A DNA stretch of 64,000 nucleotides from Chitinophagales bacterium (GTDB taxonomy: Bacteria > Bacteroidota > Bacteroidia > Chitinophagales > Saprospiraceae): contig JAAFJY010000016.1 of assembly GCA_013299105.1 (NCBI GenBank), forward strand, positions 1 to 64,000. Reading direction: 5' to 3'. The position numbers were made by a program, and so were the translations under genes. Below the pieces are notes generated by a model. That model was not told the origin of the DNA, did no database searches, and was given only the letters and a program-made list of their open reading frames with translations. Every line of letters begins with the position of its first letter. Positions within the stretch are counted from its first letter, which is position 1. Positions 30,101-41,427 of the stretch are shown piece after piece.

Positions 30101-30118
30101 CAAGCGGGTATTTACTGC

Positions 30119-30248
30119 TTTAGGGAGCGTAAAAAAATAAGGTGGACGGATTTGGGTTTAGCGAAAAAAGAAAAGCAACTGGATGAAAGGAAGTTGTGTT
30201 CTTTTTTTGCTAAACCTCAAAAGCAAATGTGTCCACCTTATTTTAGCT
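30119..30248 (+). mobile_element. MITE-like element, left copy
   Basis: The 111-bp core at 30134-30244 has perfect 14-bp terminal inverted repeats (AAAATAAGGTGGAC / GTCCACCTTATTTT) and an inner stem (gtttagc / gctaaac), so it can fold into one long hairpin. Homology with the right copy extends outward through tttagggagcgtaaa and inward to ttttagct. It encodes no protein. Confidence 0.8.
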
Positions 30249-30280
30249 CAAATACTTAACTGCTTTAATGAATTTTGGTG

Positions 30281-31348
30281 ATGATTAATGCTAAAAATCA
30301 TAAACTCCTCTTGATTGGATTTTTGGCCGCGTTTGTTCTTGGGGCTTGCGTGCCTAAGGGTATTTTGCTGATCAAAGAACAAGGTAGCTTTGCGGTGGGA
30401 GGGACCGTAATTAAAAATCCAGGAACATTCGACCCTATCAAGCGCACACCCGAAGGGCAGACTTTTCACGGTGATCATGCTTATGTCAGCTACCAAATTC
30501 CTGCCAAAACGCGCAAATATCCCTTGGTATTTTGGCATGGCATCGGACAGTTTTCCAAAACTTGGGAAACAACGCCTGACGGGCGCGAGGGGTTTAACAA
30601 TCTATTTTTGCGACGGGGCTTTAGCGTTTATTTAATCAACCAACCCCGCAGAGGTAATGCAGGTAGAAGTACCGTTGAAGCTACAATCACACCTATCCCC
30701 GATGAACAAACTTGGTTTGGAACTTTCCGCTTAGGTGTAGGAACTGAGTTCTTTCCAGGTGTTCAATTTGCCAGAGATACTGCGACTTTGGATCAGTATT
30801 TTCGGCAAATGACGCCCAATATTGGTAGTTTTGATCCTGAAGTAATCACCAATGCAACATCTAAGTTGTTTGACAAAATTGGTCAAGGCGTTTTGGTCAC
30901 CCATTCTCATTCGGGCGGGTTTGGCTGGGCAACAGCCATCAAAAATGCGAATATCAAGGCCATTGCATCTTACGAGCCTGGCAGCGGTTTCCTTTTTCCA
31001 GAGGGCGAGGTACCTGCACCAATAGCAAGTTCTGCAGGTCCATTGACCGCGCTAGCTGTGCCAAAAGCAGATTTCATGAAATTGACCAAAATTCCGATCG
31101 TCATCTACTATGGTGATTTTATTCCTGAAAAACCCGATCCAAATCCTGGTGCTGACGGTTGGAGAGCCAGATTGGAAATGGCCAAAAAATGGCGGGACAG
31201 CGTCAATCGATATGGCGGCGATGTGAAGGTAATCCACCTGCCAGAAATTGGCATCAAAGGCAATACACATTTTCCTTTTTCGGATTTGAACAACGTTGAG
31301 ATTGCAAATTTGCTTTCAAAATGGCTGAACGAAAAGAGATTGGATTGA
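30281..31348 (+). CDS. Alpha/beta hydrolase lipoprotein
   Basis: A 355-residue lipoprotein (GFLAAFVLGACVPKG lipobox) with an alpha/beta hydrolase fold. It has the oxyanion segment YPLVFWHGIGQFSKTWET, strand-loop FSVYLINQPRRGNAGRS and nucleophile elbow VTHSHSGGFGWA. A late His in GIKGNTHFPFSD fits the catalytic triad. The ATG at 30281 is used; the frame opens two codons earlier at TTG. It forms a two-gene cassette with the molybdenum hydroxylase, bracketed by the MITE-like pair. Confidence 0.8.
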   Translation: MINAKNHKLLLIGFLAAFVLGACVPKGILLIKEQGSFAVGGTVIKNPGTFDPIKRTPEGQTFHGDHAYVSYQIPAKTRKYPLVFWHGIGQFSKTWETTPDGREGFNNLFLRRGFSVYLINQPRRGNAGRSTVEATITPIPDEQTWFGTFRLGVGTEFFPGVQFARDTATLDQYFRQMTPNIGSFDPEVITNATSKLFDKIGQGVLVTHSHSGGFGWATAIKNANIKAIASYEPGSGFLFPEGEVPAPIASSAGPLTALAVPKADFMKLTKIPIVIYYGDFIPEKPDPNPGADGWRARLEMAKKWRDSVNRYGGDVKVIHLPEIGIKGNTHFPFSDLNNVEIANLLSKWLNEKRLD

Positions 31349-31441
31349 GTTGAATTGCTGTAAAAACGTAACTTGCTCAAAACTCGCTCAAGTGGTGATC
31401 AGTGTTACAGGTTGTACCTATCCAAATACAAATAGTGAGCC

Positions 31442-33700
31442 ATGAAAAATGTCAAAACCAGTTACAATCGGCGTTCATTCCTACAAGCTTCTCTCCTATC
31501 TGGTGGAGGTTTCATGCTGGGAATAAACTATTTGGCTGATGCAAAAAAACCAGGCATTTTTACTGATCTTGCTGATCTGGGGCAAGCTCCACTTGATTTT
31601 AACACACTCAATGGATTTGTAAAAATCACCGCTGACAATGTCATCAAAATCATGGCTCCAAACCCAGAAGGTGGCCAAGGGGTAAAAACTTCCATGCCGA
31701 TGATCGTTGCGGAAGAATTGGATGTGGATTGGAAAGACATCGTCATTGAACAAGCCGATTTAGATACCAAACATTTCACCCGCCAGTTCATTGGGGGCAG
31801 CCAAGCGATTCGGCAGGGTTGGAAGCCCTTGCGCACGGCTGGTGCAGCAGCCAAACAAATGCTAAAAGAAGCGGCGGCTCAAAAATGGCAAGTGCCCCAC
31901 CGTGAAATAAGCACCGAAAAAGGTGTTTTGTACCATAAAAACAGCGGAAAGTCAGCAAAATACGGCGAAATGGCCGCAGCAGCTGTAAGCATCCCTGTCC
32001 CAAAAGAGGTACAATTAAAAGATACCAAGGATTTCAAAATCATTGGCACCTCACGGCGCAATGTGGACTTGGAAAAAATCATAACTGGCCAAGCCTTGTT
32101 TGGCATTGACACCCGCAAAGAAGGGATGCTGATCGCCATGATTGTACATCCCCCTGCTTTTGGTCAAAAATTCAAGTCGGTCGATGCAGCTTCGGTCAAA
32201 AAACACAAAGGCATCAAAGCGGTTTTTCCCATTAAAATATTCAATGATGGCTACGAAAAACAGTTCTTTGACACCCTCAATTTCAACGAAGTTGTGGCAG
32301 TGGTAGGGACCGACACCTGGACGGTCATGCAAGCTAAAAAAGCTTTAAAAATCGAATGGGAGCCTATTGCCGAGTCTACCGAAAAAAGAGACATGCTGGG
32401 GCGAAAAGTAACCCAACGCATTCCCGCAGGACTCGAAAGCACGGCCGACCACCAGGCCAAAATGGCGGCCATGTCCAATCAGCAAGCAACTGTTCGAAGA
32501 AAGGACGGCGATCCTGAATTGGCATTCAAAAATGCAGCCAAAGTGATCGAACGGACCTACACGGGTCCATTTTTGGCACACAATTGCATGGAGCCGATGA
32601 ATTTTTTCGCTCACGTCACCGCAGACAAGGCGGAATTGTCGGGGCCGCTCCAAAAACCTGAATACACTGAAAAGGCCTTGTCCGAACGTTTAGGAATGCC
32701 ATTGGAGAACATAGACATCAAATTGACCCGCTTGGGCGGTGGCTTTGGTCGGCGTTCCTATGCCCATTGGTTGATTGAGGCTGCACTGATCTCTAAGGAG
32801 ATGAACGCCCCCATCAAACTGGTTTACACCCGCGAAGACGACATGACTTCGGGCATCTATCGCTCTGCCTACTCAGCTACTTATCGGGCCGCGTTGGATG
32901 CAAACAACAACTTGATCGGTTTCCATGTAAAAGCAGGAGGCGTACCAGAATCGCCGCTGTATGCAAATCGTTTTCCAGCTGGCGCAGTTGATCATTATTT
33001 GGCCGAGGATTGGACCATTGACACCAACATTACGGTGGGTTCATTTCGGGCACCCCGTTCTAACTTTATTGCCGCCGCCGAACAATCGTTTTTGGACGAA
33101 GTCGCCGAAGTAGCCGGAAAAGACCCCATTGCCTTCCGTTTGGAACTCTTAAATCGGGCCAAGGATAATCCAGTTGGAAAGAACAATGAGTATGATGCAG
33201 CGCGTTTTGCCCAAGTCCTAAACGTGCTGAAAGAAAAATCCGCTTGGGGGAAAGTGGAAACGGGAGTACACCGAGGCGTTTCAGCCTATTTTTGCCATGA
33301 TTCATACGCCGCCAATGTCCTTGATTTGGAGCTAAAAGACGGGCAGCCTGTGGTCAAAAAAGTACACTGCGTCCTAGATTGCGGCATTGTAATCAACCCT
33401 GATACCGCCAAAAACATGGCAGAAGGAGCAGTGGTAGATGCAATTGGGACCGCCTTGTATGGCAACATGACCTTTACCAATGGAGTACCCGATGCCAATA
33501 ATCTCCATCAATACCGCATGATCCGCATGCATGAAGCGCCAAAACAGATTGATGTACACTTCGTGCCCAGTACCGTTGACCCAACGGGCATGGGTGAGCC
33601 TGGCTACCCACCAGTTTTTGCAGCCTTGGCAAATGCGCTGTACAAAGCTACTGGGAAAAGATTTTACGACCAGCCTTTCTCAGCCGCCTTGGTATTTTAG
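31442..33700 (+). CDS. Periplasmic molybdenum hydroxylase, large subunit
   Basis: A 752-residue xanthine dehydrogenase-family molybdopterin-binding subunit of the isoquinoline 1-oxidoreductase beta/aldehyde oxidase type. It has a twin-arginine signal (YNRRSFLQASLLSGGGF), pterin-binding segments (RLGGGFGRRSYAHWLIEAAL, GGSQAIRQGWKPLRTAGAAA) and the catalytic Glu in TGMGEPGYPPVFAALANAL. Such enzymes hydroxylate N-heterocycles or aldehydes and need a small [2Fe-2S] subunit; none is encoded next to it. The TAG stop (33698-33700) overlaps the first bases of the right MITE copy. Confidence 0.88.
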   Translation: MKNVKTSYNRRSFLQASLLSGGGFMLGINYLADAKKPGIFTDLADLGQAPLDFNTLNGFVKITADNVIKIMAPNPEGGQGVKTSMPMIVAEELDVDWKDIVIEQADLDTKHFTRQFIGGSQAIRQGWKPLRTAGAAAKQMLKEAAAQKWQVPHREISTEKGVLYHKNSGKSAKYGEMAAAAVSIPVPKEVQLKDTKDFKIIGTSRRNVDLEKIITGQALFGIDTRKEGMLIAMIVHPPAFGQKFKSVDAASVKKHKGIKAVFPIKIFNDGYEKQFFDTLNFNEVVAVVGTDTWTVMQAKKALKIEWEPIAESTEKRDMLGRKVTQRIPAGLESTADHQAKMAAMSNQQATVRRKDGDPELAFKNAAKVIERTYTGPFLAHNCMEPMNFFAHVTADKAELSGPLQKPEYTEKALSERLGMPLENIDIKLTRLGGGFGRRSYAHWLIEAALISKEMNAPIKLVYTREDDMTSGIYRSAYSATYRAALDANNNLIGFHVKAGGVPESPLYANRFPAGAVDHYLAEDWTIDTNITVGSFRAPRSNFIAAAEQSFLDEVAEVAGKDPIAFRLELLNRAKDNPVGKNNEYDAARFAQVLNVLKEKSAWGKVETGVHRGVSAYFCHDSYAANVLDLELKDGQPVVKKVHCVLDCGIVINPDTAKNMAEGAVVDAIGTALYGNMTFTNGVPDANNLHQYRMIRMHEAPKQIDVHFVPSTVDPTGMGEPGYPPVFAALANALYKATGKRFYDQPFSAALVF

Positions 33701-33826
33701 CTAAAATAAACTGGACGTATTTACTTTTGAGGTTTAGCAAAAAAGAACGCAAATCCTTTCATCCAGTTGTTTTTCTTTTTTCATTAAACCCAAATCCGTC
33801 CACCTTATTTTTTTACGCTCCCTAAA
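33699..33826 (-). mobile_element. MITE-like element, right copy (inverted)
   Basis: This is a reverse-complement copy of 30119-30248. One terminal repeat has two changes (aaaataaactggac). The core is 33703-33811, and the outer flank ttacgctccctaaa matches the left copy. Together the copies bracket a 3.4-kb two-gene segment. Confidence 0.8.
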
Positions 33827-34675
33827 TCAAGCCAACTTACAAGCTTCCAGCTTTTCCCACAAGCGAATTGTTTCTACGGCTGCTTTTACATCGTGTACCC
33901 GCAGGATGTTGGCCCCTTGCTGCAAGGCTGCCAGGTGCAAAACACTGGTGCCATTTAGTGCATTTTCAGCATCGGTTTCCAGGTAGCGATAAATCATTGA
34001 TTTTCGGGACACCCCGGCCAAAACTGGCAAGTCAAGCACGCCAAATGCGTGCAGATTGGCCAATAAAGTGTAATTGTGGTCCAGGTTTTTACCAAAACCG
34101 AAGCCGGGATCCAAAATAATGTCTTTTACTCCTTTTTGCCGCAAAATGCCTACTTTTTGAATGAAAAAATCGAGTACATTGAGCACTACATCTTCATAAA
34201 TCGGATTTTTTTGCATATTGCCTGGAGTGCCTTGCATGTGCATGAGCACGTAGGGCAATTGCAATTCGGCGAGGGTATCGTACATGGCTTTGTCCATTTC
34301 TCCACCCGATACGTCGTTGATGATGCCGATGCCACGCGCTGCCCCTTCGCGGGCAACTTGTGCATGGATGGTATCGAGCGATAAAATGGCTTCGGGAAAA
34401 TACTTTTTTATGGTTTCAATGACGGGTAAAACCCTGCGCAACTCTTCTTCTGCCGCAATGATTTCGGCACCAGGGCGAGTCGACATGCCGCCGATGTCGA
34501 GTATTGCAGCGCCTTCTTTTAACATTTGTTCAGCGCGGTTCAAGACATCAGCCTCCACCACTCTACTTTCAGCATAAAAAGAATCTGGGGTGACGTTCAA
34601 AATTCCCATAACTTGAGGTTTCCTCAAATTCAATAATTTCCCCGCACAGTTCAGGGTCTTTTGCCTGTGAAACAT
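33827..34675 (-). CDS. folP: Dihydropteroate synthase
   Basis: A 282-residue TIM-barrel enzyme that joins p-aminobenzoate to hydroxymethyl-dihydropterin diphosphate in folate synthesis. Motifs: MGILNVTPDSFYAES, DIGGMSTRPGA, LDTIHAQVAREGA, IINDVSGG, DPGFGFGKNLDHN, VLAGVSRKSMIYR and the final RVHDVKAAVE. The ATG at 34675 is supported by length. Its stop abuts the right MITE-like copy, so no separate terminator is needed. Confidence 0.95.
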   Translation of the reverse strand: MFHRQKTLNCAGKLLNLRKPQVMGILNVTPDSFYAESRVVEADVLNRAEQMLKEGAAILDIGGMSTRPGAEIIAAEEELRRVLPVIETIKKYFPEAILSLDTIHAQVAREGAARGIGIINDVSGGEMDKAMYDTLAELQLPYVLMHMQGTPGNMQKNPIYEDVVLNVLDFFIQKVGILRQKGVKDIILDPGFGFGKNLDHNYTLLANLHAFGVLDLPVLAGVSRKSMIYRYLETDAENALNGTSVLHLAALQQGANILRVHDVKAAVETIRLWEKLEACKLA

Positions 34676-41407: not shown

Positions 41408-41427
41408 GGAGCGTAAAAAAATAAGGT
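41408..41427 (+). mobile_element. Partial MITE-like end
   Basis: Twenty bases (ggagcgtaaaaaaataaggt) are identical to the outer end of the elements at 30.1 and 33.8 kb. The rest of the element is missing. Confidence 0.5.

Follow-up and report, generated by a model that had tools for sequence, protein, structure and literature searches.

Inverted copies of a palindromic, MITE-like element around a putative hydrolase and a molybdenum hydroxylase gene in a Chitinophagales genome

Two inverted repeats enclose a putative hydrolase gene and a molybdenum hydroxylase gene in a 64,000-nucleotide stretch of DNA (C8:1-64000, hereafter the window) from a Chitinophagales bacterium whose 7.67-Mb genome is assembled in 77 contigs. 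Our analysis makes it highly probable that the two repeats belong to a single palindromic insertion element, non-autonomous and present in many copies, that is, a miniature inverted-repeat transposable element (MITE), and that they were inserted independently. The element is non-coding, AT-rich and palindromic, with a length of about 133 bp, and constitutes a new MITE family of a known kind. The first-pass annotation of this DNA had reported two inverted copies around exactly two genes, and this arrangement is real; the 130-bp element that it described is likewise a genuine repeat, although its copies measure 133 and 131 bp. The features that concern the element are as follows:

30120-30122, plus strand: target-site duplication on the left side of the left copy, TTA (from the sequence and the family statistics)
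30123-30255, plus strand: left copy of the MITE, complete at 133 bp (profile score at the top of the sample described below; one of the training copies)
30134-30147, plus strand: left arm of the sub-terminal inverted repeat, AAAATAAGGTGGAC, exact
30231-30244, minus strand: right arm of the sub-terminal inverted repeat, an exact match to the 14-mer AAAATAAGGTGGAC
30256-30258, plus strand: target-site duplication on the right side of the left copy, TTA (from the sequence)
33689-33691, plus strand: flank of the right copy, TTG, unlike the opposite flank
33692-33822, minus strand: right copy of the MITE, complete at 131 bp, in the opposite orientation to the left copy
33823-33825, plus strand: other flank of the right copy, TAA
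41408-41427, plus strand: solo 20-bp left end, an exact match, probably the remnant of another copy

The arms of the inverted pair are 95% complementary between 30116-30191 and 33754-33829 and 89% complementary between 30203-30255 and 33692-33744. The 14-bp terminal repeats previously described as perfect in the left copy are indeed exact but sub-terminal, the true element ends lying 11 bp further out. Inverted repeats cover positions 12-122 of 133, and the outermost 11 bp of both ends are not paired. Self-folding, also noted before, is strong in the left copy (-59.1 kcal/mol, z -10.8, with 0 of 200 shuffles as low) and weaker in the right copy (z -4.1 and -2.3 on its two strands). The outer-end fragment reported at 41408 is confirmed as 20 exact bp, and none of 100 shuffles contained a match even at 3 mismatches.

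The copy number of the element was estimated in several ways. A genome search with the left copy returned 433 candidates. Scoring was limited to 40 of them, each of which proved nearly full length, with 91-100% identity; the remaining 36 rows of the search showed the same palindromes matched on the reverse strand. Across the whole genome, the left-end 25-mer was counted 216 times (101 + 115) when up to 3 mismatches were allowed, compared with 0 occurrences of the reversed control. A hidden Markov model (HMM) was trained on 30 copies, including the left window copy, and used to scan a sample of 2,275,190 bases, or 30% of the genome (contigs C1, C2, C12, C23 and C34 whole and parts of C45, C76 and C8); the element ends were set by an alignment of the 30 copies and the right copy and by the HMM. 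In this 2.28-Mb sample, which includes the window, 123 elements or pieces were identified, 84 of them full length (127-145 bp), the two studied copies among these 84. Extrapolation by hand gives ~280 full-length copies in the genome. When 100 of the 216 left ends were listed, 45 fell outside the sample and were not previously known as full copies, and 44 of these were inspected: among 40 of them, 34 belonged to full copies and 6 to copies that were cut off, nested or internally deleted, and the 4 further ends all belonged to essentially full copies. The two window copies are members of a family of hundreds. As had been stated, the element encodes nothing: the longest complete open reading frame (ORF) in any of the 84 copies has 34 amino acids. 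Its G+C content is 34%, compared with 48% in the sample.

The second line of evidence is the insertion footprint. Identical 3-bp flanks were found in 57 of the 84 full copies, compared with a mean of 17.1 (sd 3.3) and a maximum of 29 in 10,000 shuffles; only full-length copies entered this count, the 39 partial pieces being omitted. A second set from other contigs yielded 29 of 52 full copies with identical 3-bp flanks (9.3 expected, shuffle maximum 19). Identity over 4 bp was found in none of the 84 copies. The duplicated letters were TAA/TAA in 21 copies and TTA/TTA in 17; in flank pairs of TNA form, the middle base agreed in 38 of 44. A C preceded the site in 36 copies and a G followed it in 40. 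The earlier statement that no target duplication is visible is therefore wrong for the left copy (TTA/TTA) as well as for most of the family, and these duplications make each copy look separately inserted.

A related question is where the copies lie with respect to genes. When open frames with a minimum of 100 codons were considered, no copy was situated between two of them on the same strand, whereas 1476 of 3000 random positions were; the values were 1/84 and 1656/3000 with a minimum of 80 codons and 3/84 and 2051/3000 with a minimum of 60. Unmasked ORFs, called longest-first and with no gene finder, covered at most 5% of the length in 71 copies, part of it in 12 and more than 90% in one. 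The open-frame test indicates that the copies sit between genes; it was done separately from the gene-context counts, in which the copies were masked before ORF calling, a design that is blind to copies inside genes. Copy number, 3-bp target duplication, absence of an ORF and intergenic position together support the MITE-like label given to the pair in the first-pass annotation. The AT-richness and the length of 127-145 bp, under the 500-bp bound for such elements, agree with it.

It had also been proposed that the copies act as strong hairpin terminators, and more generally the elements could be retained downstream of genes to terminate transcription or to serve as hairpins in mRNA processing. 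The very stable fold of the left copy and the position of the right copy between two convergent gene ends agree with such a role, as does the complementary covariation of arm positions 22/112 and 23/111 (1 and 0 of 2000 shuffles, in statistics that ignore the relatedness of the copies). Positions 28/106, however, co-vary as A-T versus G-G, a non-pairing change, so that part of the arm linkage is subfamily history, and the right copy folds much less well. Moreover, there is no excess of copies after genes: the flanking genes are tandem at 46 of the 84, divergent at 28 and convergent at 10 (random intergenic bases: 54.9%, 25.9% and 19.1%), and the nearest gene end is a 3' end in 37 cases and a 5' end in 47. 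A simple scan, which sees loops of 3-8 bases, detected no terminator-like site at the window copies, and no Rfam match was obtained. We therefore regard a terminator or processing function as highly unlikely.

The family is dense enough for close pairs to be common. Spacings of 300-4000 bp separate 27 of the 115 pairs of adjacent pieces, where ~20 would be expected (hand Poisson estimate, mean spacing 18.5 kb; all 123 pieces counted, including halves of split copies). The plus-then-minus geometry of the window occurs in 9 of these 27 (hand count), a third versus the quarter expected. Judged by these counts, the inverted pair of the window is ordinary, and two copies flanking these two genes is about what chance gives. 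The two window copies are 90.2% identical and are not each other's closest relatives, the partner ranking only 35th and 8th among 83. The genes between them are as follows:

30281-31348, plus strand: putative hydrolase (a lipoprotein according to the first-pass annotation), a bystander gene, with an 81% identical protein in genome G002
31442-33700, plus strand: molybdenum hydroxylase, a bystander gene, with MoCoBD_1 and MoCoBD_2

Further ORFs between the copies are short antisense or overlapping frames. The hydrolase start is the ATG read from the sequence, and homology searches used 30284 onward; neither Pfam nor NCBIfam gave a match to the protein at E 0.001, despite its 81% identity to the protein of G002, a genome of the same genus. 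The right copy was said to start within the hydroxylase stop codon; it does overlap the gene end, but begins two codons before the stop (GTA TTT TAG, 33692-33700). The hydroxylase C-terminus here is QPFSAALVF, in which VF and the stop are read from the MITE copy; related hydroxylases have C-termini such as QPFLGDKQELGM.

Comparison with relatives bears on whether the pair moved the genes. G002 has the order carboxylesterase (61%), two other ORFs, hydrolase (81%), hydroxylase (70%) and a second hydroxylase, and G004 has the carboxylesterase, two ORFs and the hydroxylase, without the hydrolase. The fetched stretch of G002 with the adjacent hydrolase and hydroxylase contains no element copy. When 19 relatives, including four of the same genus, were searched over their whole genomes, no element match appeared at E 0.001, and 23 fetched loci of relatives held no copy except a weak match in G043 (a locus present twice in the set). 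With the end motif (a 23-mer, 2 mismatches), 1 of 397 other genomes of the bacterial family was matched, once; this was again G043, the site there being a short hairpin that matches the HMM weakly. No record of the contig collection searched contained the exact 20-mer end, and no viral contig an 18-mer of the end, own-genome records being possibly excluded in both cases; blastn of the left copy found no match in plasmids or phages. Among the relatives sampled, the element is seen in one species only.

A separate observation concerns the other side of the hydroxylase. The hydroxylase-folP junction (window 33692-33829) coincides with the right copy and was not found in G002, G003 or G004, where folP is followed by a different gene; in G002, the hydroxylase lies at 0.89 Mb and folP at 6.11 Mb of one contig. 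A rearrangement between copies at this junction is possible.

The enclosure of two genes by inverted copies and the absence of this junction from relatives could also be read to mean that the pair, serving as the termini of a composite element, brought the genes to their present position, as the first-pass annotation suggested. We consider this extremely improbable. The left copy is flanked by a complete TTA/TTA duplication of its own, and the outer flanks of the whole unit, TTA and TAA, do not match; the copies are not closest relatives and, unlike the insertion sequences (IS) of a composite transposon, carry no transposase; close pairs, including pairs of the same geometry, are frequent; and the gene orders of G002 and G004 are present without elements, the two genes being adjacent in G002.

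Under independent insertion, by contrast with movement as a unit, a transposase acting in trans would have inserted each copy in a separate event, making a 3-bp staggered cut at TWA and favouring C before and G after the site. The hydrolase and hydroxylase would have been neighbours before the element spread, copies later landing in the gaps on either side, and the right copy would have replaced the last residues and stop codon of the hydroxylase. The question is then which transposase was involved. The fixed 3-bp duplication with its TWA preference fits a DDE transposase. TNA-type target letters are characteristic of the IS1031 group. For this group of the IS5 family, the excerpts of PMC2516522 consulted give a three-nucleotide target duplication. 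A protein search of 120 genomes of the bacterial family revealed 22 loci of IS5_3-like transposases (NF033580); ends could be placed at 13, including four copies in G002, and in all 13 the top candidate had a TAA or TTA duplication (placement required equal 3-bp flanks, with letters free, and an equal first base; lower-ranked candidates with other flanks were ignored), the other 9 loci yielding no ends. The transposase thus probably belongs to the IS1031-like group of IS5, an assignment we favour with some reserve, and the autonomous partner of the element may have been lost or gone unrecognised. Only some MITE-bearing genomes contain an autonomous partner with the same ends.

The only intact IS5_3-group transposase of the genome itself lies at C1:271647-272492, within an IS with the ends GAAGCCGTTTTAAAAT / GAAACCGTTTTAAAAT and a TTA duplication. 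It shares with the MITE a G at positions 1 and 7 and AAAAT at 12-16, but is unlikely to be the partner. The whole genome was searched for partners with PF01609, PF13359, PF01797, PF13586 and PF13340 (families such as IS3, IS110, IS982 or IS630 were not searched), and outside the 30% sample only part of the element ends were read. PF13586 and PF13340 added only the IS at locus L031 and one truncated relative; near each of L031 and L033 lies a single end from a broken MITE copy. Both MITE ends were found at 0 of 18 transposase loci, nine of the DDE type (PF01609 eight, PF13359 one) and nine Y1. One further candidate, L198, was rejected, being an internally deleted MITE copy.

The Y1 loci raise the alternative that the elements are REP-type repeats spread by a RAYT/Y1 transposase, with which the palindromic structure, the high copy number, GGAG in the left outer end and the nine Y1 places in the genome would agree. 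However, neither 20-bp end (up to 4 mismatches) occurs within about 1.5 kb of any of these places, and the 133-bp element has a 3-bp duplication agreeing on its two sides, whereas HUH enzymes are not known to make such a duplication. This origin, too, is extremely unlikely.

Several observations weigh against separate insertion by an IS5-type enzyme. Matching duplications are lacking in 27 of the 84 copies, including the right window copy (TTG/TAA), and no empty site was seen in relatives, because these are too diverged (about 60-80% protein identity). The outer 11 bp are conserved at each end, yet are not inverted repeats of each other, and unlike tips are unusual for a DDE substrate. The ends of the C1 IS resemble the MITE ends only weakly (16-mers after TWA: p 0.004 left and 0.016 right; with the first G required, 0.017 and 0.046), against a background that contains the MITE copies themselves. 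In contrast to the IS1031-like group, with which it shares the 3-bp TWA duplication, the element has no transposase gene and its ends score far below genuine ends, under all 20 IS ends collected. Finally, no transposon bearing both MITE ends was found in the genome among the families and loci searched. A DDE transposase might instead read the sub-terminal palindrome or its folded form rather than matched tips, paired changes keeping the arms complementary, but we consider this unlikely.

Several other small elements are associated with the family. Locus L264 (C43:12112-12330) is a truncated relative of the genome's IS5-type element (92% over 73 amino acids) and appears to have inserted into a MITE copy at TAA. 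At C45:172095-172410, a second small element with the left end GAGCGTGTTTAAATAT and TTA on both sides is nested in a MITE copy; this end is nearer to the IS5_3 group than that of the studied family (p 0.0003). Other short repeats within or joined to MITE copies occur at C2:198650-198977, C1:304450-304825, C1:57600-57892 and C45:5908-6300, one of which has CATACTACTGGACATG in common with an inverted repeat of L032 (contig C68).

Among known systems, excerpts of PMC2229807 and PMC10969869 describe the enterobacterial ERIC/IRU elements as 127 bp long, mostly intergenic, with stable stem-loops, target duplications and copy numbers from tens into the hundreds, 711 being reported for Photorhabdus. 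As far as these excerpts go, our element resembles them in length, stem-loops, intergenic sites, target duplication and copy number, and differs in its 3-bp, mostly TWA duplication and in having been seen in one species only; the likeness is one of description, and the sequences are not expected to be related. YPAL/RU-2 of Yersinia, as described in excerpts of PMC2229807, is about 168 bp long, not AT-rich and flanked by duplications of 3-26 bp; it shares internal rather than tip-located inverted repeats and target duplications with our element, which is AT-rich with a fixed 3-bp duplication. A literature search of titles and abstract openings found no description of this MITE family.

Coincidence within a dense repeat family is thus the best reading of the bracketed cassette. 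What the analysis provides is a defined MITE family whose insertions left clear footprints and which has been seen in only one species. To specialists, it may be of interest as a private burst in which unlike tips are joined to a fixed TWA duplication, and as part of a genome with several small mobile families nested in one another.

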